A stretch of 42,130 bases of DNA from a virus. The notes beneath the pieces are model-generated. The model was not told where the DNA came from and did no database searches. It was given only the letters and a program-made list of their open reading frames with translations. Positions 16,052-39,462 of the stretch are shown one piece after another (position 1 is the first letter of the stretch; every line of letters starts with the position of its first letter). Location of the stretch: positions 1 through 42,130 of IMG/VR virus record IMGVR_UViG_3300021425_000067. One strand, written 5' to 3'. The position numbers and the translations under genes are program-made.

Positions 16052-17032
16052 TTAAGCAACAACTGCTTCAAAGAAGTAACCCAAGTCTGCGCCTGTGACT
16101 TTCATGTCATAGGACATCTTAACTTGAATATGTTCTGCAACTTGTTGACGCTTAAGTGCATCGTCAGAGAATGACTCTACAGTTACGCCCAAGTTGTTTA
16201 CACCGTCTAGGTTGTTCCATGCGAAGGTTACACCTGCCGCTGGTGTCATTAGACCTGCTGATGCTGGTGAGTGTACCAACAATGCGTTTTTACCACCGAT
16301 GAACGAGTTGCTTTCTGCAACACCTTCTGCACTGTCGTTTTTCACAGCTTCCATGACGTAGAAGTTTTCTACTTCAAAGATTTCAGCCAACTTAGCATTA
16401 GTGATAAGTGCTGTGTTGTCCACAGTCGCACCACCGTTCAAACGTGCTAGGATGTCTGGGTGGTTGATCAAGATGTCACGCACCTCTTTACCGACAACCA
16501 TTGTGTTTGGCTTGAAGCCACCAGAAGCTAGTTGCATAGTACGACGAGCAGTTGTTACGTCTGCGATTGGTGTACCATTTGTGTAGTCTGACCACAAGTT
16601 TGATGGCGTGTTGTCTGTACCCCAAATACCTGCTGCGAAGAAGTTTGCAGCGAACTGCTCTTCACGATGGATCAACAGACGGTTAGTTAGTGTCTGTGCG
16701 CCAGCAGCACGAATGTCTAGAGCAGCATCTTCGTTAGCAAGAGTTTGCTGATCGAAGTCCATGCCTAGACCGTATACGTCTGCATAGAAGCTGTCTGTTG
16801 ACAATGACATACCGATACGGTTGACTTCTGTGCGTGGTGCAAGAGCCTTAACATCACCTGAACGGTTCATGTTGTCACGGTCATAGATGTAGTATCTGTC
16901 AGACTGTTTCTGAACGCCTACTGTTGGGAAAACCTTATCAGCGATAAAGTTAGCTTGGTCTTGTACATAAGCAATCGTTAAGTTAGTTAACGGCTGGTCG
17001 ATATGTACCGAATTTGGTGTTAGCAATGGCAT
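16052..17032 (-). CDS. Major capsid protein
   Basis: This 326-residue protein is of the type beginning LLTPNSVHIDQPLTNLTIAY followed by ADKVFPTVGVQKQSDRYYIY, typical of a large group of HK97-fold capsid proteins in marine and alphaproteobacterial phages. The middle has TLTNRLLIHREEQFAANFF, then the A-domain segment (FKPNTMVVGKEVRDILINHP) and the C-terminal strand QVAEHIQVKMSYDMKV. Protease, scaffold and decoration genes lie directly upstream and connectors downstream. A stable hairpin follows the stop. Confidence 0.92.
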   Translation of the reverse strand: MPLLTPNSVHIDQPLTNLTIAYVQDQANFIADKVFPTVGVQKQSDRYYIYDRDNMNRSGDVKALAPRTEVNRIGMSLSTDSFYADVYGLGMDFDQQTLANEDAALDIRAAGAQTLTNRLLIHREEQFAANFFAAGIWGTDNTPSNLWSDYTNGTPIADVTTARRTMQLASGGFKPNTMVVGKEVRDILINHPDILARLNGGATVDNTALITNAKLAEIFEVENFYVMEAVKNDSAEGVAESNSFIGGKNALLVHSPASAGLMTPAAGVTFAWNNLDGVNNLGVTVESFSDDALKRQQVAEHIQVKMSYDMKVTGADLGYFFEAVVA

Positions 17033-24129: not shown

Positions 24130-25488
24130 CTACATTAAGCCCTTTGCGGAGCTATATGCCAACTTTAATTGCGGCTTGGCGTATCCGTTAAGTGAGAGGT
24201 CGGTTAAAGCCCAAACTAATGCATCAAGACGGTCTGGTGAGCCTATCGACCCTAAAGGTTCCCACTGTACCATCTGATCTTCTAAATCGTTTAATCCTCG
24301 TACATGCCTAACTTTACTTTGTTCGTATAGTGCAGATACAGGTTCAGCCCGAGCCATCTTCCCTCTAGAAGCGTGGACGAGCTTTACAGGAACTGTTTCA
24401 TCCTCTGTGTGTAGCGTATGGCGTACCATATCACCACCTTGGTTACGTTCAGCTACAATACGATCAGCCATGTGATCTCTGTATAGCTGTATAGCTTTGG
24501 ATGCCCATTGTTGTGGTGTATAACGACCAGTGTGGTCTTCTAGCACATAGGCTGTTCCATTTACGTCAATTCCTGCTACGACAATGCCTGTCATGTCTGA
24601 TTCTGCATTTGCAGTGACAGCAGGGTCGATGGAAATAACGATACGACTAAGTTGTGGTACTTCGTCCTTCTCAATCTCGCATTTAGCTAAGAGAGTTCTG
24701 TTCCATAAAGCACCCGATGCTTCGTCAAGTATTTCGGCATATAGTTCTTGGCGACCAAGACGTGTACCTTCATAGGTTTTGCGGACTGCATCAAGGAAAG
24801 TGTCAGCAAGGTTAGCAGCATTATCATACGTACTACCTGTACTGATCGTCGTCTTTTCATCGTCTAGGATTGTTCTTATTAGTTTTGTAGTCTTGGGGGT
24901 AGTAGTCACAAACACTTTAGGGTGTTTACCTAGACGTAGACCAAACATCATCATGTCCCAAGTATCTTGGGCATTACGCCAAGCACAAAGCTCATCACAC
25001 CATGCACTGTAAGCCTGTGGGCCACGAAGACGTTCTGGGTCTTCTGCTGAGAAGAATACCGCCTTAGCACCATTCTCCCATGTTAAGCTATTGTTCGTGG
25101 GAGACCAAACAGGATAACCAATGTGTTTACCACGATATGTTTCATCACCACTCCAACATACACTTAGAAGACCAGAGTCACCTTCAACCATAACTCTTCG
25201 GACATCACCTTTGGTAGGTGCGACACAGTGTACAATCTTGTCACCGCTTCTAATCCGATGGCGAACCCACTCTGCACCTGCTCTAGTCTTACCCCAACCA
25301 CGTCCTGCCAAGGCGACCCATATATTCCATGAACCTTCAGGCTCCAGTTGCTCAGGTCTAGCCCAAAATCCCCAGTCATGTCTTAGCTCTTCCGCTTTCT
25401 TTGGGCCTAGCTCTTTCAGAATAGCAGCTACTTCCTCATCAGGAAGGTCTCTTAAGATGTTAGCTGTTATCTTCGCTTGGGGTTGCAT
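24130..25488 (-). CDS. terL: Terminase large subunit
   Basis: This 452-residue packaging motor has an ATPase site GRGWGKTRAGAEW (Walker A, residues about 60-72), SAWCDELCAW (Walker B region) and VFVTTTPKTTK (coupling motif). The nuclease domain begins with ISIDPAVTANAESDMTGIVV (Asp of the RNase H fold) and includes IVAERNQGGDMV and a C-terminal SIGSPDRLDALVWAL with conserved Asp. It overlaps the upstream small-subunit-like gene by 29 bp. The family would suggest headful packaging, in line with a circularly permuted assembly, but this is inference. Confidence 0.95.
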   Translation of the reverse strand: MQPQAKITANILRDLPDEEVAAILKELGPKKAEELRHDWGFWARPEQLEPEGSWNIWVALAGRGWGKTRAGAEWVRHRIRSGDKIVHCVAPTKGDVRRVMVEGDSGLLSVCWSGDETYRGKHIGYPVWSPTNNSLTWENGAKAVFFSAEDPERLRGPQAYSAWCDELCAWRNAQDTWDMMMFGLRLGKHPKVFVTTTPKTTKLIRTILDDEKTTISTGSTYDNAANLADTFLDAVRKTYEGTRLGRQELYAEILDEASGALWNRTLLAKCEIEKDEVPQLSRIVISIDPAVTANAESDMTGIVVAGIDVNGTAYVLEDHTGRYTPQQWASKAIQLYRDHMADRIVAERNQGGDMVRHTLHTEDETVPVKLVHASRGKMARAEPVSALYEQSKVRHVRGLNDLEDQMVQWEPLGSIGSPDRLDALVWALTDLSLNGYAKPQLKLAYSSAKGLM

Positions 25489-25918
25489 CGGGCTTATTCT
25501 TTCCTAGAAGGGTAATTAGGGAGTCAATAGCTGATTCGTCTTCGTCGGGGTTCTCTGACTGTTCAACTTCATTAACAGTAGACGTAGGTGACCAACCACC
25601 TTTAGAACGTAGGAATAGTTCTGCTGCCTTAAAGTCACCGTCAAGGGCTTGTTGTATAACGACAGAACCAACTTGACCTACAATATCAGCTTTAGTGTCA
25701 GCTATGTCTTGTCCATAAAGCTTATAGAAGGTAGCTGTAGAGCTAGGAGCATTCTGGTACTTTTGTATCGACGCAAGTATGTCTTTAACAGACACACCAT
25801 TACGTATGCCCTCTTTAACCTTCTTGGCTATAACTTCACTATATGGGATTGCTTGGATGCTCATATTCTTAACGACAGATAAAATTGCTTTGTAGCTCTC
25901 ATCCATCGGCAAAACCAT
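25460..25918 (-). CDS. Putative terminase small subunit
   Basis: This 152-residue protein is the first gene of the late array. A predicted helical N-terminal half (ESYKAILSVVKNMSIQAIPY, SEVIAKKVKEGIRNGVSVKD) is followed by ADIVGQVGSVVIQQALDGDF and LFLRSKGGWSPTSTVNEVEQ. GGWSPT is a phrase common in small terminases of the type that carry a helix-turn-helix. The C-terminus is acidic. Position directly before terL supports the role; DNA recognition itself is not visible in the sequence. Confidence 0.72.
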   Translation of the reverse strand: MVLPMDESYKAILSVVKNMSIQAIPYSEVIAKKVKEGIRNGVSVKDILASIQKYQNAPSSTATFYKLYGQDIADTKADIVGQVGSVVIQQALDGDFKAAELFLRSKGGWSPTSTVNEVEQSENPDEDESAIDSLITLLGKNKPDATPSEDNS

Positions 25919-25993
25919 ACTCTGATTCTACAGTTGGAAAGTTACGTCTTGGTTGAATGAGAACGACAAAACAATTTAGGAGATTATCTCTAT

Positions 25994-26014
25994 ACATAAG
26001 TATTAAACTTATGT
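25994..26014. promoter_or_regulatory. Inverted repeat ACATAAGT-N5-ACTTATGT
   Basis: Two perfect 8-bp arms are separated by 5 bp, about 90 bp downstream of the late phage-sigma promoter. The same half-site ACATAAGT recurs three times between the second phage-sigma promoter and its gene (33134-33199). A site for a regulator or a leader RNA structure is likely. Confidence 0.6.
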
Positions 26015-26072
26015 CTGTTTTTTCTTTACTAGATAAAGAAGAAAAAACTATATATGCTGAAAACTATAGTTA

Positions 26073-26086
26073 TATACTTAAGTATA
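26073..26086. promoter_or_regulatory. 14-bp palindrome TATACTTAAGTATA
   Basis: This perfect palindrome lies just downstream of the late phage-sigma promoter (26102-26130), at about +10 to +25 of its expected transcript. It shares the ACTTA/TAAGT core with the ACATAAGT sites, so the same protein might bind it. Confidence 0.45.
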
Positions 26087-26101
26087 GCTTTCTTACTATT
26101 A

Positions 26102-26130
26102 TATAAGTGCTTTTTTTGTGTTTTGTAACA
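26102..26130 (-). promoter_or_regulatory. Phage-sigma promoter, late (terminase) operon
   Basis: On the minus strand TGTTAC (26130-26125), a 17-bp spacer that is A-rich and ends in GCA, and CTTATA (26107-26102). The same two hexamers at the same spacing occur at 33089-33117 and 37082-37110. It lies 184 bp before the first late gene. TATAAT also overlaps the downstream element here, so host polymerase could use it weakly. Confidence 0.78.
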
Positions 26131-26322
26131 CACAATTTTAAACTATTTTATAAGCCTTTGTTTTCTAACGAATCTTTTTTGTTGTTTTATAGGTGATTCT
26201 TGGGTGGGTAGCCGATGTTATGAACTTTTGTTACAACTTTGTTGCACTTTGTTATATGCGGCAGTTTGACACACCTGAACTAATTTCTTTAGTTTGTAGA
26301 TGTAGGGGTAAACCTCCACCGC

Positions 26323-26334
26323 CGAATCGATTCG
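26323..26334. promoter_or_regulatory. Palindromic operator candidate CGAATCGATTCG at the sigma-70 start point
   Basis: This perfect 12-bp palindrome begins 4 bp downstream of the -10 element of the promoter at 26338-26366, so it covers the expected start of transcription. It contains two abutting GANTC sites (26324, 26329). A repressor or methylation-sensitive factor bound here would block that promoter. Confidence 0.6.
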
Positions 26335-26337
26335 TGT

Positions 26338-26366
26338 ATTATACGGAGGGTCTCACGTTTTGTCAA
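26338..26366 (-). promoter_or_regulatory. Perfect sigma-70 consensus promoter, leftward
   Basis: On the minus strand TTGACA (26366-26361), exactly 17 bp, TATAAT (26343-26338). It points toward the terminase operon with a leader of about 410 bases and no gene between. Such a strong promoter is expected to be active at once after infection unless blocked; a palindrome lies at its start point. Confidence 0.85.
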
Positions 26367-26504
26367 TAGTTAATTTCATTCTGTAACAATTCGTGATCAA
26401 TCTGTCGTTATGTGACAAAAATACAACACTTTGGTATAAAATTAGGGCTTGACAAACATTTTTGCTTGACACTCAAAGCGAATCGGCAGCACCCACACGA
26501 ATCG

Positions 26505-26548
26505 TTTGTGATCACAAAAGAATAAACAAGAGTCAAAATGTGATCACA
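26505..26548. promoter_or_regulatory. Pair of TGTGATCACA palindromes
   Basis: TTTGTGATCACAAA (26505-26518, perfect 14 bp) and TGTGATCACA (26539-26548), centres 32 bp apart, about three helical turns. They lie between the cassette terminator and the leftward sigma-70 promoter, about 145 bp upstream of its -35. A degenerate third copy (CGTGATCAA) is at 26392. They look like operator sites; the binding protein is unknown. Confidence 0.6.
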
Positions 26549-26578
26549 AAACAATTGGTAAACATTTATTACCACAAC

Positions 26579-26606
26579 AAAAAAAAGACGACCCCGAAGA
26601 GTCGCC
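26579..26606 (-). terminator. Rho-independent terminator with UUCG tetraloop
   Basis: The minus-strand RNA forms an 8-bp stem, GGCGACUC with GGGUCGUC, closed by C-UUCG-G, and is followed by eight Us. It lies 29 bp after the stop of the gene at 26635 and ends the leftward five-gene cassette before the late control region. Confidence 0.9.
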
Positions 26607-26634
26607 AGTTGGGAGTCAACAGTATTAAAACTAA

Positions 26635-27369
26635 TTAGCCAACAAGGGCTTTTGCTTTGCGTTTTGACGTACCATGCGCCACGATAGCGACCGACTTGCC
26701 CTTGACGGATGCACCACCACACAACTTGCATTGTGCGCATTGGACTCTTGCCCCTGCCTCTTCACTAGCAGGACACAACACTTCTTTGCCTTTAACGATT
26801 GAGTCCAGTGATGCAATGACTCTAAATGTCCGTTCGCCTCTATCCCACGCCGACTCCGCTTGTGCTAGGTTATCCGCACTAGTCATTATGGACTCTGGCA
26901 TTGTGTTGGTCTGGTGGGTGTATGCAGTGACATATTCTGCGCCACTGGTTAGGGATTCCCAAATGAATTGCGGTACTGCAAGCGGGTCTCCGTAGCTACC
27001 TAGTCTTACGCCACGCAATAGGCCAATAGCACGAATTGACTCATGCCCTTGTGCAAGCTCATATGCGCCTCGCTTGTATGCTTTGTAAACGCCGTTAGGG
27101 GCAAACAGTAGGTTAACGTAGCACGTGCGGTCTATCGCTTGCCCTGTTGCCTTGTTAGAGGGCTTGCCCTTGTGTGGACAATCACCACAAATTGACGAGT
27201 CTGCCCCTGTTCTACTGGCGGTAATTGGATCAATGTCCGAACGTAGAATCCACGTTTGCACCATGTCGCCAGTTTTACGATTGCCAGACTTTACTTGTGC
27301 GATTGCCACGATAGGTTGACCGTCGATTAGACTTGGCCCTTGGTATATGATATATGATTTATTGGTCAT
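26635..27369 (-). CDS. Phage/plasmid conserved protein with two cysteine clusters
   Basis: This is a 244-residue protein of a family I have seen widely in phages and plasmids but whose function I do not know. It opens SYIIYQGPSLIDGQPIVAIA, has KTGDMVQTWILRSDIDPITA, then the first cluster CGDCPHKG (residues about 61-68) with a further Cys in DRTCYVNL. The second cluster near the end is CPASEEAGARVQCAQCKLC. The pattern suggests two metal sites, perhaps nucleic-acid binding. It is the last gene of the leftward cassette and is followed by a strong terminator. GGAG precedes its start. Confidence 0.78.
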   Translation of the reverse strand: MTNKSYIIYQGPSLIDGQPIVAIAQVKSGNRKTGDMVQTWILRSDIDPITASRTGADSSICGDCPHKGKPSNKATGQAIDRTCYVNLLFAPNGVYKAYKRGAYELAQGHESIRAIGLLRGVRLGSYGDPLAVPQFIWESLTSGAEYVTAYTHQTNTMPESIMTSADNLAQAESAWDRGERTFRVIASLDSIVKGKEVLCPASEEAGARVQCAQCKLCGGASVKGKSVAIVAHGTSKRKAKALVG

Positions 27370-27371
27370 TA

Positions 27372-27533
27372 TTAGGACTCCTTTTTCACTTCAAAAACAA
27401 TGCAATCGGATTCATGCAAACCCCAAGTGCCACGCCATTTTTTGATAGCTATTGATGCTGATTTATTGCCAGTAAATGACTGTTCGAAATAATCACCATC
27501 ATTTTCCAAACGCCAAATAATTGTAAATTTCAT
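27372..27533 (-). CDS. 53-residue hypothetical protein
   Basis: Start ATG 27533 shares a base with the stop of the mini-gene upstream (TAATG), and the stop lies just before the next gene. The product begins MKFTIIWRLENDGDYFEQSF and ends in a Lys/Glu tail, with a strand-helix-strand pattern and SIAIKKWRGTWGLHE in the middle. No family is recognised. Its place in the chain of coupled starts makes it very likely real. Confidence 0.68.
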   Translation of the reverse strand: MKFTIIWRLENDGDYFEQSFTGNKSASIAIKKWRGTWGLHESDCIVFEVKKES

Positions 27534-27616
27534 TAGTCTGACTCCGTATTGATTAGGACAATTATGACGATAAAGAAAACCGCCACGATAAAAGGGATAT
27601 AAAGCATAAAGGGCAT
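27533..27616 (-). CDS. 27-residue single-helix membrane mini-protein
   Basis: The ORF encodes MPFMLYIPFIVAVFFIVIIV followed by LINTESD, nearly all one membrane helix. It starts one base after the upstream stop and its own stop overlaps the next ATG as TAATG. This is a clear candidate for a translated membrane peptide, perhaps modifying host membrane functions, but such short ORFs can also be incidental. Confidence 0.5.
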   Translation of the reverse strand: MPFMLYIPFIVAVFFIVIIVLINTESD

Positions 27617-27617
27617 A

Positions 27618-27797
27618 TTAGTTATAAAACCCCGTATCTTCACCATTGATTAGCGAAACATGATAGCCGCCCACGTTAGGCACAAAGATTCCAAATCCGT
27701 CGCTATCTGGTGCAATGCCATACGACCACTTGCCCAATAGGAACACGATTGCCAATAGTTGAATTTTAAGTGTTAGTTTTAAGATTAGGTTTCCCAT
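27618..27797 (-). CDS. 59-residue membrane or secreted protein
   Basis: Start at ATG 27797 overlaps the upstream stop as TAATG; a longer frame to 27884 lies wholly inside the upstream gene. The N-terminus (LILKLTLKIQLLAIVFLLGKW) is a membrane helix or signal; the remainder (SYGIAPDSDGFGIFVPNVGG and on) is polar and glycine-rich. No family is recognised. It could act in the host envelope early in infection. Confidence 0.65.
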   Translation of the reverse strand: MGNLILKLTLKIQLLAIVFLLGKWSYGIAPDSDGFGIFVPNVGGYHVSLINGEDTGFYN

Positions 27798-28486
27798 TAT
27801 ACTGACTCCAAATTTGTTGTTAGTCCGTCCACAACTTGAAAGCTGTATTTTCCATAAATTGCCCAAACGTGGCGTTTGATCCATGCATATTCTTTGGTTG
27901 ATCCGTCATAGATACCTAGTGCATTGGCAATGCTGTTTGCGCTATACCAATCGTTTCCTTCTTGCATGGCTAATTTTGCCATATATTCAGCGTCCATACG
28001 CAAAGATTCAAAACGCTCATTTTCCAATTCATCAACATAATGGTGCAATGCACGATATTCGATTGTTTCATTGCGGCAACACTTGCGAATATCTTTGGCG
28101 ATCAGAGCAAATAATTGGTCATGATCAACATCAGCATCCGCTCCAAAATATCCGCTATGCATAATCATTGAATAATCGTCCGTTAGTATCTCAAACCAAC
28201 GTGCAAAGCGTTCATCTTTGGTGTTCTCCCAAACTTGAGAAAAATCGTTGGTGTCGATTGCCTCCATCATTGATTGCGCCAATGCATAACAAAGACACGC
28301 TGCGAGAGGGTTTTCTTTAAATAGAGTCTTAAAGAACTGTTTCTTTTCAGCTTGCCAGATATCGTATTGCATTGTGCCAATTTCGATAAAGCTAGGAGTC
28401 TTTGCGAATTGCATAGCTTGCGCAACTGCGTCAAAGCCCGCTACTTCTTGAATTTTTGCGATTGTTTCTGCGAATTGGTTTGTCAT
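27797..28486 (-). CDS. 229-residue hypothetical protein heading the leftward cassette
   Basis: This acidic, helical protein (FAETIAKIQEVAGFDAVAQA at the start; WFEILTDDYSMIMHSGYFGA in the middle; NDWYSANSIANALGIYDGST near the end) has many Asp/Glu and aromatic residues. The C-terminal part NSIANALGI...STKEYAWIKRHVWAIYGKY reads like a winged or helix-turn-helix module, but I would not call it a DNA-binding protein without structure prediction. GAAGGG lies seven bases before ATG 28486. It is the first gene of the cassette and so may be expressed earliest. Confidence 0.75.
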   Translation of the reverse strand: MTNQFAETIAKIQEVAGFDAVAQAMQFAKTPSFIEIGTMQYDIWQAEKKQFFKTLFKENPLAACLCYALAQSMMEAIDTNDFSQVWENTKDERFARWFEILTDDYSMIMHSGYFGADADVDHDQLFALIAKDIRKCCRNETIEYRALHHYVDELENERFESLRMDAEYMAKLAMQEGNDWYSANSIANALGIYDGSTKEYAWIKRHVWAIYGKYSFQVVDGLTTNLESV

Positions 28487-28524
28487 GTCGTTTCCCTTCG
28501 GGGTTGGTTGTTGCCGTTGACGTA

Positions 28525-28554
28525 GCTAGGGCAGATTTTCGGACAGCTTGTCAA
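28525..28554 (-). promoter_or_regulatory. Weak promoter candidate for the leftward cassette
   Basis: TTGACA (minus strand, 28554-28549) lies about 62 bp before the first cassette gene. The sequence 17-18 bp downstream (CCTAGC) is only a poor -10. The TTGACAAGC string also occurs on the plus strand at 28763. Included because it is the only good -35 in the right place. Confidence 0.35.
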
Positions 28555-28603
28555 GAGTACAAAAGGAGAACATTGGGAAAAAACATTTTGTTACGTTACG
28601 TCA

Positions 28604-28652
28604 TTACAACCTATAGGTTAGCCAGGTTAGTTTATTTTACAACTTATAGGTT
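28604..28652. repeat. Direct repeat TTACAAC(C/T)TATAGGTT
   Basis: Copies at 28604-28619 and 28637-28652 start 33 bp apart, three helical turns, and each contains a TATAGG that could act as a -10. TGTTAC lies at 28589, and CTTATAGG in the second copy is also the downstream element of the promoter at 33112. They may be early promoters or binding sites of a regulator. Confidence 0.55.
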
Positions 28653-28656
28653 TAAT

Positions 28657-28673
28657 AGTTTAACGATTAAACT
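28657..28673. promoter_or_regulatory. Inverted repeat AGTTTAA-CGA-TTAAACT
   Basis: Perfect 7-bp arms with a 3-bp centre, lying 5 bp after the second TTACAACTTATAGGTT copy. Its size and symmetry fit an operator for a dimeric repressor controlling transcription that starts near 28650. Confidence 0.5.
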
Positions 28674-28802
28674 AGTTTTAAAATGCGGAACAGAGGGGGA
28701 ACGAATCGTGAATCAAACGTGAAGATTTAAAGCTATGCAAAAAATGCATGGCAGCTATGACTTGACAAGCACAGATTCTTGTGTGGCACGATTCGAATCA
28801 TG

Positions 28803-28882
28803 TTATGCGATTCTTACATATCAGACTTGCAAAAAATGCATACCTATAACCTATGCGATTCATGCATGGGTGCTATGCGATT
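28803..28882. repeat. TATGCGATT(C/T) repeat cluster
   Basis: TATGCGATTC at 28804-28813 and 28852-28861 and TATGCGATTT at 28874-28883, the last two followed by ATGCAT. Two TGCAAAAAATGCAT boxes (28737, 28828) lie among them. Most copies include a GANTC site. Probably part of the origin or early operators. Confidence 0.55.
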
Positions 28883-29098
28883 TATGCATAACCGACTCTT
28901 TTTGTCGGGAATGACTGATTCGGTCATGCGGTTACCTGATTCGCTGTCGTTTGTCAATCGGATTCACGAGTCAAGCAAAAAATACTTGCGAATCGTAGTA
29001 AATTTACCACACTATCCGAAATATCCTGTCAATTATCCTTTTGTGCCATTGACAGCAAATTTGGATATGCGAATCACTACCCGAATCGGTAGTTTGGA

Positions 29099-29198
29099 AC
29101 GAATCAAGAACGAATCACGAAAATCAAACGAATCGGGAACGAATCGTGAAATGAGAACGAATCAGGAACGAATCAGGAAAACGGAACGAATCATGAAC
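29099..29198. repeat. 29-bp tandem repeat (iteron array), 3.4 copies
   Basis: Units begin at 29099, 29128, 29157 and 29186 (partial). Each full unit holds ACGAATC twice, 11 bp apart, then an A-rich 18-bp step to the next unit. The seven ACGAATC starts thus alternate 11, 18, 11, 18, 11, 18 bp. All contain GAATC. The array resembles iterons bound by a replication initiator or a cooperative regulator. Confidence 0.85.
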
Positions 29199-29220
29199 TG
29201 TGATATTTTTGCCACAGACC

Positions 29221-29327
29221 CCCCACAGTGGAAATTAAGGGTCTACCCCCTCCAGTGGAAATTAAGAGTTGACCCCCACAGTGGAAATTAGTAATCTACT
29301 TACGAATCACCCCCACAGTGGAAATAT
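29221..29327 (+). promoter_or_regulatory. Four CCCC-x-CAGTGGAAAT repeats before the early array
   Basis: CAGTGGAAAT starts at 29226, 29253, 29279 and 29316. Three copies have CCCCACAGTGG, whose core CCAC-A-GTGG is a perfect odd palindrome, followed by AAATTA in three of the four. The last copy ends 16 bp before the first early ATG, so a protein bound there would control that gene. Spacing is 27, 26 and 37 bp. Confidence 0.75.
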
Positions 29328-29342
29328 AGAAAGGAAAATAAA

Positions 29343-29522
29343 ATGGCAGAGATTGGCAAAAGAATTACCTACAAAGGTCACTCAATTATTCCAGTATACT
29401 TTGCAGAAAGTAAGAAAACAGTGTTTGACTTGTACATGGGAATCACGTATACACGTTTTATAGACACTTGGAACAGCGTAGAAGAGTGTAAAGAATATGT
29501 CGATAGACCTACAAAGATATAA
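29343..29522 (+). CDS. 59-residue early protein
   Basis: This is the first gene of the rightward array; ATG 29343 has GAAAGGA upstream. The product starts MAEIGKRITYKGHSIIPVYF and has a strand-rich N-terminal half and an acidic-aromatic C-terminal half (NSVEECKEYVDRPTKI). No family is recognised. As the first early gene it is a candidate host-takeover protein. Confidence 0.68.
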   Translation: MAEIGKRITYKGHSIIPVYFAESKKTVFDLYMGITYTRFIDTWNSVEECKEYVDRPTKI

Positions 29523-29535
29523 GGAGACCCCTACG

Positions 29536-29736
29536 ATGGAAAAAGAAGTAGAAGTACTAAGCATCATAGCAAAGATACTGAAGGATGCAGATAAAGAGAT
29601 CGTCGCAGTGTTCAAGAACAATTTCACTGAGGATGAACTGGATAACAGTGCATGGGCTATATCTGCTTACAGTCTAGCGTGGGATGCTATGCGTGAAGCA
29701 GAAGAGTTAAAAGCTAAAGCAGAATTGGAGTCGTAA
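29536..29736 (+). CDS. 66-residue acidic helical early protein
   Basis: I start at ATG 29536, nine bases after AAGGAG; the frame is open back to 29497. The product is almost all helix, with many Glu, Lys and Ala, and holds NFTEDELDNSAWAISAYSLA. No family is recognised. It follows the first early gene by 13 bp and precedes the next by 1 bp. Confidence 0.68.
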   Translation: MEKEVEVLSIIAKILKDADKEIVAVFKNNFTEDELDNSAWAISAYSLAWDAMREAEELKAKAELES

Positions 29737-29737
29737 A

Positions 29738-30031
29738 ATGGAAACTATCATCAAGCAAATCAAAGAGATCGACAGTGACCTACACAATGTTATTTGTCGT
29801 GCAGAGAAATGTCGTCAGGATGCTGAACGTGGGATCAACGTAAACCACAGTTCAGATTTCTCGTGGACTAAAGAAGACAAACTTAAGAGCCTGTTTGAAT
29901 ATCTGGAAGATGCCAAAAATGATATTGACCAGTTGAAGGATGACGTGAAGGTCATAAAAGATTACTTGACTAATCTTCTGGATGATGTAGAGTACGAATC
30001 AATCAGACAGAAAGCTATAGGAGAATCATAA
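29738..30031 (+). CDS. 97-residue coiled-coil early protein
   Basis: Start follows the previous stop by one base. The sequence is a long amphipathic helix in two parts (TIIKQIKEIDSDLHNVICRA; FEYLEDAKNDIDQLKDDVKV) with strong heptad character. Dimer formation is likely. No family is recognised. Its stop overlaps the next ATG (TAATG). Confidence 0.7.
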   Translation: METIIKQIKEIDSDLHNVICRAEKCRQDAERGINVNHSSDFSWTKEDKLKSLFEYLEDAKNDIDQLKDDVKVIKDYLTNLLDDVEYESIRQKAIGES

Positions 30032-30177
30032 TGAAATATAATCTTATCATCAGCTACCCAGACGGAAGTTATCACCTCTGGAATAAGACAAAGGATAATG
30101 AATGGGAAATTACCTTTGAATATGAAGAACAAATGCTAAAGTTTATGCAGAGACTATTGGAGAATATCTATGACTAA
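30031..30177 (+). CDS. 48-residue early protein
   Basis: ATG 30031 overlaps the previous stop and the end overlaps the next gene by 8 bp, so it is coupled on both sides. The product is MKYNLIISYPDGSYHLWNK followed by an acidic helix. Its beta-hairpin start resembles several other small proteins of this array. No family is recognised. Confidence 0.62.
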   Translation: MKYNLIISYPDGSYHLWNKTKDNEWEITFEYEEQMLKFMQRLLENIYD

Positions 30178-30622: not shown

Positions 30623-30862
30623 ATGACTAACTATGTTGCAAAAGATGTTGTACTTCAAACACTTACAAAAATTGGATACAATAGAACATTCCATGTTGTC
30701 TTTGATAAGGCTGATGGTGAAGAACGTGAGATGGACGCAATGATGATCCAACCAGATCGTCCAGTGTTCAAAGAAGTAGAGAATATGCCAGTGATTGACA
30801 TATGGAAAGAAGCATGGCGTTCGTTCAATGTTAATCGTGTAAAACAGATTGTAACAGAATGA
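30623..30862 (+). CDS. SH3-barrel-like small phage protein (DUF2693-like)
   Basis: This 79-residue protein has AAGGAG before ATG 30623. A helix DVVLQTLTKIG is followed by strands RTFHVVFDKADGEEREMDAM and an end with IDIWKEAWRSFNVNRVKQI. This matches a common family of small phage proteins predicted to adopt an SH3-like barrel and described under DUF2693. Function is unknown; similar proteins are often early and may bind nucleic acids or host proteins. The stop overlaps the next ATG. Confidence 0.72.
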   Translation: MTNYVAKDVVLQTLTKIGYNRTFHVVFDKADGEEREMDAMMIQPDRPVFKEVENMPVIDIWKEAWRSFNVNRVKQIVTE

Positions 30863-31254
30863 TAGGTGTCGAGTGTTTGGCGGTTGCGATCTTCTTTGAG
30901 GCTCGTGACCAACCCCTCTCAGGGCAATTCGCCGTGGCAGAGGTGGTAATGAACCGTGTGGTCGATGATCGTTGGCCTAATACTATTTGTGGTGTCGTAT
31001 TCGATGACAAACAATTCTCGTTTACCCACGATGGAAAGTCTGACCGCATTGATGCATACATAGATAACATAGATGACTGGAGAGCCGCTGTAACAGCTCG
31101 TGAGATAGCTTATCAGGTTTTTAGCGATGGGTATACCGAAATGACCTCTACCCACTACCATGCACTCTCTGTGTCGCCCTCATGGGCAGAACATTATTTT
31201 TACGACGGAAGGATTGGCGATCATGTATTCTACACTGCACCAGTTGGCAAGTAA
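30859..31254 (+). CDS. SleB-like cell wall hydrolase
   Basis: This 131-residue protein is close to the SleB/CwlJ hydrolase family: AVAIFFEARDQPLSGQFAVA, EVVMNRVVDDRWPNTICGVV, FDDKQFSFTHDGK, and the final HVFYTAPVGK. The conserved Glu is in FFEARDQ. The family cuts peptidoglycan, mostly as lytic transglycosylases. It has no signal peptide. Its place in the early array, far from the late lysis cassette, is unusual; wall remodelling during infection, or a second lysis enzyme, are possible. It overlaps the upstream stop (ATGA). Confidence 0.88.
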   Translation: MIGVECLAVAIFFEARDQPLSGQFAVAEVVMNRVVDDRWPNTICGVVFDDKQFSFTHDGKSDRIDAYIDNIDDWRAAVTAREIAYQVFSDGYTEMTSTHYHALSVSPSWAEHYFYDGRIGDHVFYTAPVGK

Positions 31255-31883: not shown

Positions 31884-32550
31884 AATCAACGTAGACCTGA
31901 TTGAGCATATGGGTGATGACCTTACGGTTGTACGTGCTGCACGAGTGTCCTACGCTAACACTTCTGACTGGCGTGGTCAGATACATTCAGGGGAATTTCG
32001 TGTCCTCAGTGACAAGGACATACGCTTAATCAGTTTTTTAGCAAAGCATAAGCATACATCACCATTCGGACATGGGTTTGCTACCTTCCGTGTGGATGCA
32101 CCAATCTTTGTTGCCCGACAGTTGGTTAAGCATAAGTTCCTACGGTGGAATGAGATTAGTCGTCGTTACGTGAAGTATGAACCAGAGTTCTATGAACCAT
32201 ACTGGCGTGAGAAACCTGAGAACTCTAAGCAGGGTTCAGGGGGGCCGATGGAAATTAGTCAAGAAGCTGAAATGATGTTTCATGCTACCTTACGTAATGC
32301 ACTTACGACATATGACATGATGATCAAAGAGGGTGTTTCACCTGAACAGGCACGATCCATATTACCCCAGAATATGATGACATCATGGTATTGGTCTGGC
32401 AGTCTGGATGCATGGGCTGACATGTGTAAGCTACGTTGTGCCAAGGATACACAAGCAGAAACACGCATCGTAGCCTCTGTGATTTATGGGGAAATGCTGA
32501 AGCTATACCCTGTCTCTTGGGCTGCATTAATGGAGAGTGATGATGGATAA
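31870..32550 (+). CDS. thyX: Flavin-dependent thymidylate synthase
   Basis: I chose ATG 31870 with AAGGAG ten bases upstream; a longer frame to 31768 has no support. The 226-residue protein has the ThyX core: SPFGHGFATFRVDAPIFVAR, the signature region QLVKHKFLRWNEISRRY at residues 84-100, and ARSILPQNMMTSWYWSGSLD. It methylates dUMP using folate and FAD. The signature RHR-x7-S reads KHK-x7-S here (Lys87-His88-Lys89, Ser97). It leads the nucleotide and replication part of the array and overlaps the sigma factor start. Confidence 0.93.
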   Translation: MKKGEINVDLIEHMGDDLTVVRAARVSYANTSDWRGQIHSGEFRVLSDKDIRLISFLAKHKHTSPFGHGFATFRVDAPIFVARQLVKHKFLRWNEISRRYVKYEPEFYEPYWREKPENSKQGSGGPMEISQEAEMMFHATLRNALTTYDMMIKEGVSPEQARSILPQNMMTSWYWSGSLDAWADMCKLRCAKDTQAETRIVASVIYGEMLKLYPVSWAALMESDDG

Positions 32551-33088
32551 CGATGATATTATGAAAATATGTCGATCCCTAGCGAGGAAATATAACGATC
32601 CACAAGAGTATGACGACCTAGTGTCTGAAGGTGTCGTAAAAGTGCTAGAAATGGTCGCTGAAGGTAAAACCGACAAGAACCTACTGTATTCTCATGCGCA
32701 AGCAGTGATGAATGAGTATTACAATCTGTCTAGATCACCTGTTAAAGTGCCTAAGTCGCATCAAGCAAAGGCAATGAGTGCTGATGATGATGTTGATGGT
32801 TGGACTGCTACTGCCTTACATCAGGCATTGTATGCTGATTCTGTTGAGTATGAAGAGTATATGTCGCAAGCACCATCGACAGAAGACCTGTACGAACAGA
32901 AAGAATGGTTTGCTAGGGTTCAAACTGTGGCTGTCAGTCACCTAACACAAGAAGAGTGGGCAATCATTCGCATGAGATATTGGGATGACCTTACACAAGA
33001 TGATGTAGGTATTCATATGGGTCGTAACAAAATGTGGGTATCACGACACGAAAAAGCAGCACTAGAAAAAATCCGTAACAATTTGTGA
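32543..33088 (+). CDS. RNA polymerase sigma-70 family factor
   Basis: This 181-residue protein starts at ATG 32543, seven bases after GGAG (GTG 32537 and ATG 32540 are alternatives). Residues about 18-60 match sigma region 2: YDDLVSEGVVKVLEMVAEGK, then a helix and LSRSPVKVPKSHQAK, like the region 2.4/3.0 junction. Residues about 130-178 match region 4: LTQEEWAIIRMRYWDDLTQD, DVGIHMGRNKMWVSRHEKAA, with the helix-turn-helix at the end. A promoter motif shared by three operons begins at the base after its stop codon. It probably redirects host RNA polymerase to phage genes. It is not an ECF type in strict length; T4 gp55-like factors are an alternative relative. Confidence 0.8.
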   Translation: MDNDDIMKICRSLARKYNDPQEYDDLVSEGVVKVLEMVAEGKTDKNLLYSHAQAVMNEYYNLSRSPVKVPKSHQAKAMSADDDVDGWTATALHQALYADSVEYEEYMSQAPSTEDLYEQKEWFARVQTVAVSHLTQEEWAIIRMRYWDDLTQDDVGIHMGRNKMWVSRHEKAALEKIRNNL

Positions 33089-33199: not shown

Positions 33200-34783
33200 A
33201 TGAGTAGAACTGCACATTTGCCATGTCCTTATCATGGTTGTGGATCGTCTGATGCCTTTAGGTGGTGGCCTGAAGATGGGAATGGGTTTTGTCACTCTTG
33301 TCGTGGAAACTACCCGAAGGATAAGAAAGAGTTGTTCAGTTGGGCAAAAGAGAAATACCCCCCGAATGGAAATAAGGAATGGTCAGATATGAACGTAACA
33401 AGTTTTACACCTAAGAAGGTAGAAAGTAAGGATGATGGTCGTTATCAATCCATGCGTGGTATCAATGCTACGACAATGGAAGATTATGGCGTAAAGACAT
33501 TCCCTGACCGTCAAGAGTATGTATACCCCAGCGGTGGAATTAAGGTTCGTCGTTTAGACGAGAAAGCATTCTACACTAAAGAGGGTTTCAAGGGTGATGA
33601 ACTGTTCGGTATGAACCTGTTTACATCTGGGTCGTCTAAAATGGTAACGGTAACAGAGGGCGAACTAGATGCCCTGTCAGTGGCACAAATGCTTAAGAGC
33701 AGCTACACTAACCCTGTTGTGTCTTTACCCTCTGCTACGCCCTCTAAGAAGCTCTGGGAGAACTGTAAGGAATGGTTAGATGGGTTTGAGAAGATCATCC
33801 TATCTGTCGATACAGATGACGCAGGTAATTCTCTTGCTGATCGTATGGCTAAGTTATTCCCTAACAAGGTCTACCGTGTACCACACGACAAATACAAGGA
33901 TGCTAACGAGTTCCTACAGAATGGTGCGCAAGCAGAGTTTAAGAGTGCATGGTGGAATGCTAAGAAGTATACACCAGAAAATATACTAAACACTGCAGAC
34001 CAGTTTCTGTCGTTGTATCACGATACACCAGAGCATATCTATGTAGAGACAGGCATTCAGGCACTGGATGACAAGATACTTGGTTTGATGCAGGGACATT
34101 TCACAGTGTTCAAAGCACCTACAGGGATCGGTAAGACAGAACTAATGCGGTATCTAGAATACAACATGCTACAGAAGGGCATACCGATTGCTGCATGGCA
34201 TCTAGAAGAAACCAAACTAAGGTCACTACTTGGTCTTGTGTCGTATCACCTGAACGATAATCTGACACGCAGGGATTTGATTGATGAAAAGGAACGTAAC
34301 GAGGATGTAATAGAAGCAATCAAAGACATCACTAAGGATGAAAACTTCTATCAGTTTTTTCTAGGTGATGGTGCAAGTGCTGAAGACTTGATTGACCAGA
34401 TTAGGTTCTTTAGTCAGGCATGTGGTTGTAAGTTTATCTTCTTTGAGCCTATCCAAGATGTAATCTCTGGATCATCTGAGGAAAGCAAAGAACAACAGTT
34501 GGCTGACCTGTCAGTACGTCTGTCTAAACTTGCAGCAGAATTAAACGTAGGTATCGTAAGCATTGGTCACACTAACGAGAACGGTGATTTCAAATATTGT
34601 AAGATGATTGGTCAACGTGCATCAGTTATCATCGACTTGTACCGTGACAAAGAAGCTGAAGACCTACAGGAACGCAACACAACGTATCTCAAGATTGAGA
34701 AGAACCGTCCATCCTCTGAGGAAGGTGCAGCAGGTAAGATGCGGTTCAACTACGATACGTTTACACTACGAGAGGTGATCTAA
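33200..34783 (+). CDS. T7 gp4-like DNA primase-helicase
   Basis: This 527-residue protein has an N-terminal zinc finger (CPYHGCGSS, then CHSCRG, residues about 9-36) and a TOPRIM primase core with VTEGELDALSV and LSVDTDDAGN (residues about 150-205). The DnaB-like helicase has Walker A APTGIGKTE (about 310), a Walker B region at KFIFFEPIQD (about 415), GIVSIGHTNE and QRASVIIDLYRD. Length and order match T7-type bifunctional proteins. It would unwind DNA and make primers for the polymerase two genes downstream. It has its own phage-sigma promoter. The next gene overlaps its stop by one base. Confidence 0.94.
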   Translation: MSRTAHLPCPYHGCGSSDAFRWWPEDGNGFCHSCRGNYPKDKKELFSWAKEKYPPNGNKEWSDMNVTSFTPKKVESKDDGRYQSMRGINATTMEDYGVKTFPDRQEYVYPSGGIKVRRLDEKAFYTKEGFKGDELFGMNLFTSGSSKMVTVTEGELDALSVAQMLKSSYTNPVVSLPSATPSKKLWENCKEWLDGFEKIILSVDTDDAGNSLADRMAKLFPNKVYRVPHDKYKDANEFLQNGAQAEFKSAWWNAKKYTPENILNTADQFLSLYHDTPEHIYVETGIQALDDKILGLMQGHFTVFKAPTGIGKTELMRYLEYNMLQKGIPIAAWHLEETKLRSLLGLVSYHLNDNLTRRDLIDEKERNEDVIEAIKDITKDENFYQFFLGDGASAEDLIDQIRFFSQACGCKFIFFEPIQDVISGSSEESKEQQLADLSVRLSKLAAELNVGIVSIGHTNENGDFKYCKMIGQRASVIIDLYRDKEAEDLQERNTTYLKIEKNRPSSEEGAAGKMRFNYDTFTLREVI

Positions 34784-35211
34784 TGTCTGATATTTTCTGG
34801 ACTAAACTTAAAACTGATGAGGCTACTGTGTGGCTTAATAAAGAAAAATGCAAGGAGTATACTAAAGAAACTTATCCGATAGTCTTAGAAAGTGGCGACC
34901 TCATGGTAGTAAATGAGGATAAACAATACGCATACATAGATAATTTTATACAAGATTCTATACAATTCTTAGTGGATCATGGTGAAATCAACCCTGTTCT
35001 TAGGACTTTGTCGGAATCCTTAATAAACGATTTCGCAGCTACCGTTGAAGAATACGGATTTTATGCAGAAGAAGCACCAGATGAATGGACTGGAAAAGAG
35101 TTAGCAGATGAGATACTAGACAGCTTAGAAGGTTTATCTAGAAAACTAGGTACAACATTAGAAGAAATTAGAGAAAAACGAGAATATGATTTCTATTGGG
35201 ATAAGTGTTAG
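34783..35211 (+). CDS. 142-residue acidic hypothetical protein between helicase and polymerase
   Basis: The product (IFWTKLKTDEATVWLNKEKC, VNEDKQYAYIDNFIQDSIQF) is acidic and mostly helical in its second half (LADEILDSLEGLSRKLGTTL). No family is recognised. It shares one base with the primase-helicase stop and its last bases supply the ribosome site for the polymerase. It might be a replisome accessory; this is only from position. Confidence 0.7.
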   Translation: MSDIFWTKLKTDEATVWLNKEKCKEYTKETYPIVLESGDLMVVNEDKQYAYIDNFIQDSIQFLVDHGEINPVLRTLSESLINDFAATVEEYGFYAEEAPDEWTGKELADEILDSLEGLSRKLGTTLEEIREKREYDFYWDKC

Positions 35212-35219
35212 GAGAACAA

Positions 35220-37061
35220 ATGCCAGTATTCGATATTGAAACAGACGGTCTACTAGACGAACTAACAAAGATTCATGTGTTATCTTGGATGGGGGACGAT
35301 GGAAATGTGCATTATACACATGACTATGATGCTATGCGTATATTTTTTACAGAAGCACCTACACTGATTGGTCACAACATCATTCGCTTTGACATCCCTG
35401 CAGTGGAAAAAGTGTTAGGCATTGAAGTAAAGTCTCGTCTGATCGACACTCTACCTTTGTCGTGGTATCTAAACCATGATCGTATGAGACATGGGCTTGA
35501 GGGCTACGGAGAGGACTATGGTGTACCTAAACCAGTGATCAAGGACTGGAACACGCTAACACCAGAGGAATATGCTCACCGCTGTAATGAGGATGTTAAG
35601 ATCAACACAAGGTTACACCGTGACTTGGACTTGAAGCTGAACAAACTGTATCAGGACAGTGGAGAGAAAGATCGCTTTATTGACTATCTCATGTTCAAGA
35701 TGGACTGTGCAAGAGAGCAGGAGACCCTACGATGGAAATTAGATGTGGAGAAAGCAAAAGCCCATCTACAGGAATGGGAAGACCTAAAGCATGAAAAGAC
35801 AGAAGCCTTGGCTGATGCTATGCCAAAACGTAATCTATTTACTACCAAGACAAAACCGAAAGTCATGTACAAAAAAGACGGTACACTTTCTAGTCACGGC
35901 GAAAAATGGGTTCAGTTATGTAAGCAAGAACACCAACCGATTTCTACACTGTCTATGGTGGTCAAAACAGGAGAAGAACGAGCAAATCCTAATAGTGTGG
36001 AGCAGGTCAAAGATTGGCTTTTCTCTTTGGGGTGGAAACCTCGTACCTTCAAATACCTAAAGGATAAGGTAACTGGTGATGAACGGAAATTGGAACAAGT
36101 ACGGAAAGACGGAGAACTCTGTCCCTCAGTACGTGAACTGGTTGAACAGGAACCTGCTATTAGTTTGCTTGATGGCTTGTCTGTTCTTTCACATCGTATT
36201 GGTGTCCTTAGATCAATGGTTGAAACAGAGAACGATGGATACGTGCAAGCAACTGTTGCAGGGTTCACTAACACCCTACGCTTTCGTCATGCCCGACCAC
36301 TGGTCAACTTGCCATCGGTTGATAAACCCTACGGAAAAGAAATCAGAGGGTGTCTAACTGCACCTGAAGGTTACACTTTGTGTGGTGCTGATATGACATC
36401 GTTAGAGGATACGACAAAGAGACACTACATGAAACCACTTGATCCTGATTATGTCGCTGAAATGTCTAAGGATGGGTTTGACCCGCACCTTGACCTTGCT
36501 AAACACGCAGGTGTCGTCACACAAGATGACATCGACAAGCATAATTCAGGGGAACGTAGCCTTAAGGCACTACGTAAGAACTACAAGGTGGTGAACTACA
36601 GTGCTACGTATGGTGTAGGAGCCGCTAAACTGGCTCGTGAGACAGGTATGAGTAAGTCTGAGGCACAGACACTGCTAGATGCTTTTTGGTCACGTAACTG
36701 GTCAGTACAGAAGGTGGCAGAAGGTCTACGTGTTCGTGAACTCTTTGGCTCCGCTTGGGTACAGAACCCTGTATCTAAATTCTGGTATAGTCTGCGGTCT
36801 GACAAGGATCGTTTCAGTACACTAAATCAGGGTACAGGTGTATTCTGTTTCGACAGTTGGGTTAAGGGGTGTCGTGGTATGGGACTAAAGACTATCGGTC
36901 AGTTCCACGACGAAATTATAACTTTAGTGGAAGAGGGGGATGAGGACAAAGAAGAAAATATTATGACTATGGCAATCGACCAAGTAAACCAAGAAATTCA
37001 ACTAAATGTACCACTTGGGATAGATGCACAGTTCGGACGGACATATGCAGACATCCATTAG
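35220..37061 (+). CDS. polA: Family A DNA polymerase (T7-like)
   Basis: I chose ATG 35220, with AGGAG upstream; a frame to 35205 exists. The 613-residue protein has a 3'-5' exonuclease domain (FDIETDGL; IGHNIIRFDIPAVEK; CNEDV) and polymerase motifs A (CGADMTSLEDTTKRH), B (RKNYKVVNYSATYG) and C (GQFHDEIITL). The residue matching E. coli Phe762 is Tyr, a state reported for many virulent phages. Residues about 195-300 are a T7-like insertion region, diverged. It would work with the helicase upstream and SSB downstream; no obvious dedicated thioredoxin partner is seen apart from host thioredoxin. Confidence 0.95.
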   Translation: MPVFDIETDGLLDELTKIHVLSWMGDDGNVHYTHDYDAMRIFFTEAPTLIGHNIIRFDIPAVEKVLGIEVKSRLIDTLPLSWYLNHDRMRHGLEGYGEDYGVPKPVIKDWNTLTPEEYAHRCNEDVKINTRLHRDLDLKLNKLYQDSGEKDRFIDYLMFKMDCAREQETLRWKLDVEKAKAHLQEWEDLKHEKTEALADAMPKRNLFTTKTKPKVMYKKDGTLSSHGEKWVQLCKQEHQPISTLSMVVKTGEERANPNSVEQVKDWLFSLGWKPRTFKYLKDKVTGDERKLEQVRKDGELCPSVRELVEQEPAISLLDGLSVLSHRIGVLRSMVETENDGYVQATVAGFTNTLRFRHARPLVNLPSVDKPYGKEIRGCLTAPEGYTLCGADMTSLEDTTKRHYMKPLDPDYVAEMSKDGFDPHLDLAKHAGVVTQDDIDKHNSGERSLKALRKNYKVVNYSATYGVGAAKLARETGMSKSEAQTLLDAFWSRNWSVQKVAEGLRVRELFGSAWVQNPVSKFWYSLRSDKDRFSTLNQGTGVFCFDSWVKGCRGMGLKTIGQFHDEIITLVEEGDEDKEENIMTMAIDQVNQEIQLNVPLGIDAQFGRTYADIH

Positions 37062-38612: not shown

Positions 38613-38920
38613 GACAACAAGAGATCAGGGATACTATCCTTAAGACGTTCCCTGAACTTGAACCTGACGATGTTCGTTCTACTGCTATGGGCCAGTCAGG
38701 GGAAGATATACAACTGTCTCCAAAGGCACGAGACATTCTTCCCCTGTCTATAGAAGTAAAGCGACGAAAGAGCCTAGCAACCGTATACGACTGGATTGAA
38801 CAAGCAAAGCAAGACGGTCAATATGAACCTGTTGTTTTCTTCCGTGGGGATAGAAAAGATTGGGTTGTTATGGTTGGTCTGGAACACTATATGGAACTTG
38901 TAAGTAAGTGGAGAAAGTAA
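38573..38920 (+). CDS. PD-(D/E)XK-type nuclease, resolvase-like
   Basis: This 115-residue protein has a basic start (TARSSKAKGRLGQQEIRDTI), GQSGEDIQLSP with Asp45, and SIEVKRRKS with Glu61-Val62-Lys63. This is the D...ExK pattern of small Holliday junction resolvases and related endonucleases. It follows the exonuclease gene (40 bp overlap), where T7-like modules often carry a junction-cutting enzyme. I prefer that role, but repair nuclease is possible. Confidence 0.78.
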   Translation: MATARSSKAKGRLGQQEIRDTILKTFPELEPDDVRSTAMGQSGEDIQLSPKARDILPLSIEVKRRKSLATVYDWIEQAKQDGQYEPVVFFRGDRKDWVVMVGLEHYMELVSKWRK

Positions 38921-39462
38921 TGGGCAAACGGTCTAACTTTGAACGTGTTGAAAGAGATTATTACCCGACACCAATAGAGGCCGTTGCACCTTTGATCGAC
39001 CATCTTCCGCAGGAGACTTTTGACTTTGTTGAACCTTGTGCAGGAGATGGTCGGTTAATCCAACATATACACGATCTTACAGATGGACATGGGACTTGTA
39101 TATATGCTTGCGACATTGAACCTAGACATCCCGACATTGTTCAGCATGATGCTCTTGATATTGACTTTGGTGGCTATGAGGTAATGGACTTCTGTATTAC
39201 TAACCCACCGTGGGAACGTAACTTCTTACATCAGTTTATAGAACACTGGATAGACATTTGTCCTACTTGGTTGTTGTTTGATGCAGACTGGATGCATACT
39301 AAACAGTCAGCTAAACTTATGACATACTGTTCTAGAGTTGTCAGTGTTGGCAGAGTTAAGTGGATAGAAGGTTCAAAGCATACAGGTAAGGACAACTGTT
39401 GTTGGTATCTATTCGATCAGAACGATAAAGGCCCGACTGAATTTTACGGAAGGCTAATGTGA
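38920..39462 (+). CDS. Adenine-type SAM-dependent DNA methyltransferase-like protein
   Basis: I start at ATG 38920 (GGAGAAAG upstream, overlap with the previous stop). This 180-residue protein has DYYPTPIEAV, the SAM-binding VEPCAGDGRL (motif I), DIEPRHPDIVQHDALDID and the catalytic motif NPPW (residues about 99-102), as in N6-adenine methyltransferases. No target-recognition domain is visible, so specificity cannot be read. It may shield phage DNA from host restriction, or modify the GANTC-rich control region. Confidence 0.82.
   Translation: MGKRSNFERVERDYYPTPIEAVAPLIDHLPQETFDFVEPCAGDGRLIQHIHDLTDGHGTCIYACDIEPRHPDIVQHDALDIDFGGYEVMDFCITNPPWERNFLHQFIEHWIDICPTWLLFDADWMHTKQSAKLMTYCSRVVSVGRVKWIEGSKHTGKDNCCWYLFDQNDKGPTEFYGRLM

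Follow-up and report, generated by a model that had tools for sequence, protein, structure and literature searches.

Introduction

Clusters of GATC that are read by Dam and SeqA are found at the origin oriC of Escherichia coli and in phage P1. In Caulobacter, promoters regulated by the methyltransferase CcrM and by GcrA carry a GANTC site near a sigma-70 start and the motif YGAKTCG (PMC3667746, PMC7987155, PMC3973325). Caulobacter GcrA is reported to need this motif for activation, and Brevundimonas GcrA is described, in the accessible part of that work, without such a motif (PMC7987155). Depletion of GANTC is a published pattern of alphaproteobacterial genomes (PMC3973325), and some pelagiphages show it genome-wide, with no island mentioned in the accessible text of that report (PMC9516812). 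Clusters of CtrA sites have been described in LPEG phages of Alphaproteobacteria (vB_BsubS-Delta, PhiCbK), and GcrA sites showed no positional asymmetry in the phage set of the same survey, as far as its accessible text goes (PMC9437464). Within open-access full text, no earlier description of a GANTC cluster in a phage was found.

We analysed a virus record of 42,130 bases, hereafter the window. Among the named members of the phage collection, Roseobacter phage CRP-6 comes closest to it, with identities of 83% in the large terminase (TerL) and 76% in the primase. The host from which CRP-6 (MK613348) was isolated is a roseobacter of the RCA lineage, and a GANTC island goes unmentioned in the accessible text of the isolation report (PMC6918029). 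CRP-6 shares with the window the phage type, the island described below and its position, and differs in that its leftward genes come from another family.

Results

A GANTC Island Upstream of the Putative Small Terminase Gene

A reading of the sequence alone (the sequence-only reading) had counted 23 GANTC sites in 28703-29308, nine in 26170-26617, three in 33200-37061 and none in the primase-helicase gene (33200-34783), and our recount returned the same numbers. The count of 23 was the highest of any 606 bp in the window. In 200 order-1 simulations no such stretch exceeded 11 sites, and when 90 sites were placed at random 2000 times the maximum never exceeded 9. The whole window contained 90 GANTC, against 148 expected from dinucleotide or 124 from trinucleotide composition; 54 of them fell within 25901-30050, where 13.4 were expected, and the remaining 37,980 bases held 36 against 109 (trinucleotide; ratio 0.33). 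The clustering was thus borne out, but its proposed confinement to two control regions was not: an island of about 4 kb (25919-30050) comprises two intergenic regions and runs through the leftward genes between them. In its densest part (28703-29308) the 23 sites are mostly CGAATC followed by A or G; the second control region (26170-26617) holds the other nine. GAATC/GATTC made up 21 of the 23 sites in 28690-29310, and CGAATC occurred there 16 times, both strands summed, the next base always being A or G. The island lies upstream of a leftward gene (25460-25918, minus strand) that adjoins the TerL gene (24130-25488, minus strand) and is named by its position as a putative small terminase gene (terS), with no PHROG match. 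This position relative to the putative terS is kept in CRP-6 and in relatives.

In CRP-6, the final 2.9 kb of the record, past the gene matching the putative small terminase, held 38 of the 69 GANTC sites. Four more distant roseophages, CRP-4, CRP-5, ICBM2 and CRP-118, contained 63, 66, 60 and 48 sites against 115-123 expected and showed no cluster, only overall depletion. We found the same tendency in two genomes of the presumed host order, in which the observed/expected ratio of GANTC was 0.21 in coding DNA and 0.35 and 0.45 in intergenic DNA. Counting along the window and its relatives therefore confirmed the depletion outside the island, yet as an ordinary alphaproteobacterial background: since the presumed-host-order genomes are depleted as well, matching the published pattern, it is the island, and not the scarcity of sites around it, that stands out in the phage. 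The claim that the phage avoids the site in its genes loses its force accordingly, because the depletion matches that of the comparison phages and presumed-host-order genomes, and island genes can themselves be rich in sites.

Restriction-type words are extremely avoided in the window (CCGG 0, CGCG 0, CCSGG 0, CCWGG 2), and CCNGG occurred once outside the island against 69 expected. The last 123 bases (42008-42130) repeat bases 5-127 exactly, which suggests a terminal repeat or a circular assembly.

GANTC Sites within the Island Genes

The leftward island gene at 26635-27369 (minus strand; DUF7227/phrog_2554) contained nine GANTC sites, or 12.2 per kb, and has GGAGTC directly upstream of its start; a second leftward gene (27797-28486, minus strand), with neither a Pfam nor a PHROG match, contained four. 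When 35 genes of the window and CRP-6 were each subjected to 400 synonymous shuffles, with p values uncorrected for the number of tests, gp68 of CRP-6 showed 15 sites as compared with 6.2 in the shuffled sequences, none of which reached 15, and the DUF7227 gene showed 9 as compared with 5.4 (p 0.015, uncorrected). The excess was weak or absent in five smaller island genes. Elsewhere, the primase (0 sites versus 3.6), the gene at 16052 (putative capsid), the portal and the polymerase fell below their own synonymous shuffles. Retention of GANTC in the DUF7227 gene was 0.59 versus an average of 0.42, the 27th of 255 patterns and hence above average but unexceptional.

DUF7227 can be ruled out as a necessary factor, as several GANTC-rich loci, including CRP-6, are without it. 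Its loci below about 57% identity showed no GANTC enrichment. In a DUF7227 genome search for prophages carrying the module in named hosts, 17 distant loci were obtained, none of them from Rhodobacterales by title.

GANTC Sites at Two Conserved Promoter-Like Elements

A near-consensus sigma-70 promoter is predicted at 26320-26366 (minus strand), pointing toward the putative terS and the structural genes, with TTGACA at 26361-26366 as the -35 and TATAAT at 26338-26343 as the -10. The 17-bp spacer holds the element GAGACCCT, and GAATCGATTC begins five bases past the -10, so that GANTC sites at 26324 and 26329 flank the predicted, unmapped start. The exact pattern was found in 33 viral contig stretches. 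Of 86 loci anchored on terS, 56 had this scaffold (53 GANTC-rich and 3 GANTC-poor) and 30 had no recognisable one (8 rich and 22 poor). A GANTC followed the -10 in 51 of the 53 rich scaffold loci (29 of 30 after deduplication at 90%) and in none of the three poor ones, as compared with 20% of random windows of equal width in DNA of rich loci. In the same 51 of 53, a GANTC thus lies within 40 bp of a predicted sigma-70 start, as in CcrM/GcrA-regulated promoters. The extended motif YGAKTCG is also present at the terS promoter, as CGATTCG in the window and as TGATTCG in many relatives.

A GGGACCCT-like element with an operator-like look lies between the -35 and -10 of this promoter (26338-26366 and in relatives), with or without a GANTC island. 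It is kept without GATTC in the GANTC-poor loci L105, L118 and L143 and in three loci rich in CCWGG; in those three, which were inspected individually, CCTGG occurs near the terS promoter.

On the plus strand, a rightward promoter-like element (29049-29090) has TTGACA at 29049-29054, a GAATC at 29071 in the would-be -10 position and another at 29083. With a loosened pattern, this arrangement (TTGACA, then GAATCACTACCCGAATCGG) was present in 16 of 41 GANTC-rich loci and in none of 16 poor loci. It is followed by a tandem array of seven GAATC (29101-29192, plus strand) spaced at 11, 18, 11, 18, 11 and 18 bp, that is, in a 29-bp unit. The assignment of the sites to early promoters was therefore supported as to promoters, since they lie at two conserved promoter-like elements, but not as to early ones alone: the best-conserved GANTC promoter faces the structural genes by way of the putative terS and terL, which implicates late transcription as much as early. 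A phage sigma-70-like protein (32537-33088; region 4 and a weak region 2) could read -35/-10 promoters.

One Slot with Different Words in Related Phages

Metagenomic relatives were sampled as the best 80 of 546 primase, 568 TerL and 136 DUF7227 matches. The primase and TerL samples together with CRP-6 gave 47 locus rows with at least 1.5 kb upstream of the putative terS, chosen independently of GANTC, although some rows are two loci on one contig. GANTC density in these rows was bimodal, with 27 at 9.1-22.5 per kb, 20 at 0.3-3.1 and none in between; adding the DUF7227 sample brought in intermediate rows at 5-9 per kb. The TerL side of the sampled loci had 0-5.4 per kb, mostly below 3. In a tree built from the TerL of 57 distinct rows (42 GANTC, 7 CCWGG, 8 neither), the GANTC state switched at least five times across well-supported branches, and L118, without an island, differed from the island-bearing L122 in only 3 of 451 TerL residues. 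These changes of state and the near-identical TerL of L118 and L122 mean that the island is swapped as a unit.

The leading palindrome was GANTC, or its GASTC or GAWTC half, in all GANTC-rich rows except L201 and L192. Relative to expectation, GASTC was enriched about 2.5-13 fold in GANTC-rich loci and GAWTC, where listed, about 2-6 fold, and this enrichment of both halves indicates selection for a GANTC-type target with a free centre and not for one fixed word. Such a centre would fit a methyltransferase-type target, as a fixed transcription-factor word would not be expected to leave it free. In 29 pooled GANTC-rich loci, the module had a GANTC ratio of 4.45 and the TerL side one of 0.38, with the next five-letter palindrome at 1.49; as these pools were selected by GANTC, their ratios are descriptive and are no test. 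The same holds for the matches to YGAKTCG, which numbered 307 among 1106 distinct island contexts versus 6 of 163 on the TerL side, in related loci that are not independent.

In ten relatives (L140, L142, L144, L146, L148, L150, L152, L154, L155 and L156), the slot was rich in CCWGG and CCSGG was not enriched. Pooled, they gave a CCNGG ratio of 2.17 in the module versus 0.14 outside; nine of the ten had CCWGG as their leading palindrome, and the seven placed on the TerL tree formed one well-supported clade. In L105, the slot upstream of the putative terS contained 26 CGCG against 8.7 expected, with zero on the TerL side. The most surprising result is this occupation of one slot by different methyltransferase-type words among relatives. 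A search of the partial records of the CCWGG clade gave no C5 methyltransferase that might account for its word, and two C5 methyltransferase matches belong to relatives with neither island. L087, L089 and L101 are, upstream of the putative terS, both GANTC-rich and rich in AAGCTT (10-12 sites versus about 1.7).

Features of a Possible Origin

The sequence-only reading had placed a putative origin in the dense region. The GC-skew minimum of the window lies in the island at 28298, that of CRP-6 at the equivalent position, but it coincides with the point where transcription diverges. Beside the island are four 27-bp repeats with GTGGAAA (29220-29336, plus strand), which are independent of GANTC: an array of at least three TGGAAA was present in 29 of 32 GANTC-rich loci and also in 5 of 14 GANTC-poor ones. 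No DnaA box cluster was detected. Given the shared position of skew minimum and divergence point and the iteron array of the poor relatives, the timing of replication stays no more than a proposal. CtrA boxes (TTAA-N7-TTAA) formed no cluster, with one site in the window and zero in CRP-6.

Candidate Writers and Readers of the Sites

Searches for a phage-encoded CcrM, as a beta-class N6 methyltransferase (PF01555), were negative in 16 records (the window and CRP-6 whole, several others partial), as were those for a phage GcrA gene (PF07750) in six phage records. A phage-encoded CcrM or GcrA was rejected on these records, and GcrA, if involved, would have to come from the host. Genomes of the presumed host order were found by taking the SAM/SAH riboswitch RF01727, which we take as typical of Rhodobacterales, as the centre (4 of 385 class members). 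In this order, taken as Rhodobacterales, the GcrA model matched in 195 of 195 sampled genomes, although in controls it matched the archaeal Sulfolobus acidocaldarius as well as Caulobacter vibrioides, and the RAMA domain, presumably the C-terminus of CcrM, matched in 41 of 41. D. shibae carries both ccrM and gcrA (PMC4046655). In two of the presumed-host-order genomes (400 kb each, crude gene calls from long ORFs), no preference of YGAKTCG for the DNA between genes was found; it made up 4 of 48 and 6 of 71 intergenic GANTC sites and 20 of 279 and 30 of 275 coding ones.

The window itself encodes a methyltransferase-like protein (phrog_799; 38908-39462, plus strand) with EPCAGDG and NPPW motifs, which is common to island-bearing relatives. 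The three island-bearing genomes compared, namely the window, CRP-6 and G003, have the phage METHYLTRANSFERASE (phrog_799 gene), and six phages without an island lack it; one other window gene, a cell-wall hydrolase (30859-31254), had the identical pattern and was also present in the GANTC-poor L105 and L110. All 18 loci whose primase is at least 75% identical and that extend 5.5 kb downstream, the window and CRP-6 included, had the phrog_799 gene. Among the 46 phage records with a homolog, 38 or more belong to phages that infect Alphaproteobacteria by name. Five further homolog-bearing phages (41-53% identity; three read whole, two minus their first 2.0 and 12.5 kb) had no island in the parts read, which rules out this methyltransferase as a sufficient factor, two of the five having been read partly. 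The protein has 184 aa and no PF01555 match; its structure model is of low confidence (pLDDT 57), with weak structural matches that include M.TaqI, and a PDB sequence search returned bromodomain proteins only, which we took as chance.

Discussion

The island, the free central base of its word, the position of sites at promoters, their conservation and their replacement in relatives are direct observations. To explain them, we propose, at slightly less than even confidence, that this is a swappable control island of about 4 kb in a CRP-6-type marine roseophage, whose GANTC promoters would depend on CcrM, and perhaps GcrA, of the host. In this reading, selection has gathered GANTC, the target of the host cell-cycle methyltransferase CcrM, in the island, both between and within genes, past the -10 of the near-consensus terS promoter and in the rightward promoter-like element. 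Because methylation lags behind DNA copying, phage transcription, including that of the structural genes, would follow replication or the cell cycle of the host. A bolder reading, which we regard as possible but doubtful, is that the methylation state could differ between copied and infecting DNA and so switch phage programmes, with a GANTC version at the promoter of terS and the structural genes. Beyond this, we infer that CcrM methylates the sites and that GcrA reads them, as well as which way the effect runs. The CcrM link put forward by the sequence-only reading has gained plausibility from the GANTC-specific signal with its free centre, from recurrence in CRP-6 and relatives and from the CcrM-type and GcrA genes of the presumed order; the timing that went with it is partly supported, its origin part not. 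The CCWGG clade, the CGCG of L105 and the pair L118 and L122 indicate that the use of CcrM/GcrA is dispensable in close relatives, and that GcrA is not a general principle. Also against the proposal count the missing preference of YGAKTCG for intergenic DNA in the two presumed-host-order genomes, the many island sites within genes together with the weak or absent excess in five smaller island genes, the eight GANTC-rich loci with no recognisable terS scaffold, the absent asymmetry of GcrA sites in the published phage set (PMC9437464) and the archaeal match of the GcrA model.

The main rivals to CcrM-dependent promoter reading are a reader or a writer encoded by the phage. The reader would be a DNA-binding regulator particular to each module, which recognises a short degenerate palindrome (GANTC, CCWGG, or CGCG in L105) and coats the island, methylation being incidental. 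Such a protein would suit a word that is exchanged together with the module although TerL hardly varies, the covering of coding DNA and the regular 11/18-bp spacing of the tandem sites. A free central N, however, and W instead of S in CCWGG, would typify methyltransferase or restriction targets and not repressors, and within 8.5 kb upstream of terS the most widely shared gene cluster, an open frame over the repeats, reached 19 of 30 GANTC-rich loci, which vary in length. We consider a regulator of this kind unlikely, and the same holds for the phage's own phrog_799 methyltransferase writing the island independently of CcrM timing. The latter would agree with its presence in the window, CRP-6 and G003 and not in six island-free phages, with the 18 of 18 loci of high primase identity and with the predominance of alphaproteobacterial phages (at least 38 of 46) among its bearers. 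Against it stand the five of five other homolog-bearing phages that are island-free in the parts read, the small size of the protein (184 aa), the missing PF01555 match and the low-confidence model; moreover, the gene travels with the replication module, so its link to the island may be one of lineage only.

We judge it quite improbable that the island is a replication origin sequestered by hemimethylation, by analogy with SeqA and GATC in E. coli. The AT-rich intergenic stretches, the skew minimum with its counterpart in CRP-6 and the repeats adjoining the island would be expected of an origin, but the minimum doubles as the transcription divergence point, the repeats exist without GANTC in 5 of 14 poor loci, a DnaA box cluster is lacking, and we know of no SeqA analogue in Alphaproteobacteria. 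A density far beyond the need of a promoter, coding sites included, might instead point to a decoy that titrates CcrM, GcrA or a restriction enzyme; as the sites are fixed at conserved promoters, and gathered restriction targets would expose the DNA to cutting, this appears very unlikely to us. Least credible is an artefact, either a foreign segment with another word bias or a local relaxation of avoidance: the module is indeed swapped between relatives, but the pooled modules in which GANTC stands about 4-fold over expectation still avoid CCNGG and CGCG, and the two presumed-host-order genomes fall below the GANTC expectation.

The window belongs to an abundant marine phage type, and the GANTC bias is strong enough for testing on cultured CRP-6. 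If CcrM-dependent promoter reading is true, it would link phage gene timing to host cell-cycle methylation, and the close relatives that carry CCWGG instead would offer a natural experiment in how a phage comes to read another mark.

As compared with known systems, the window resembles the GATC clusters of Dam/SeqA in that a control region is densely set with targets of an orphan adenine methylase, and differs in the methylase. It is like the Caulobacter CcrM/GcrA promoters in the GANTC near a predicted sigma-70 start and in the motif YGAKTCG, and unlike them in being a phage genome with a site density many times higher. A phage-encoded GcrA is present in PhiCbK, in contrast to the six phage records searched here. 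With the depleted pelagiphages the window shares the character of a marine alphaproteobacterial phage with few GANTC across most of its genome. Like the LPEG phages, it is an alphaproteobacterial phage in which sites of a host cell-cycle regulator are gathered in a promoter-bearing region; unlike in these, the word is GANTC and not TTAA-N7-TTAA, and coding DNA is filled as well.
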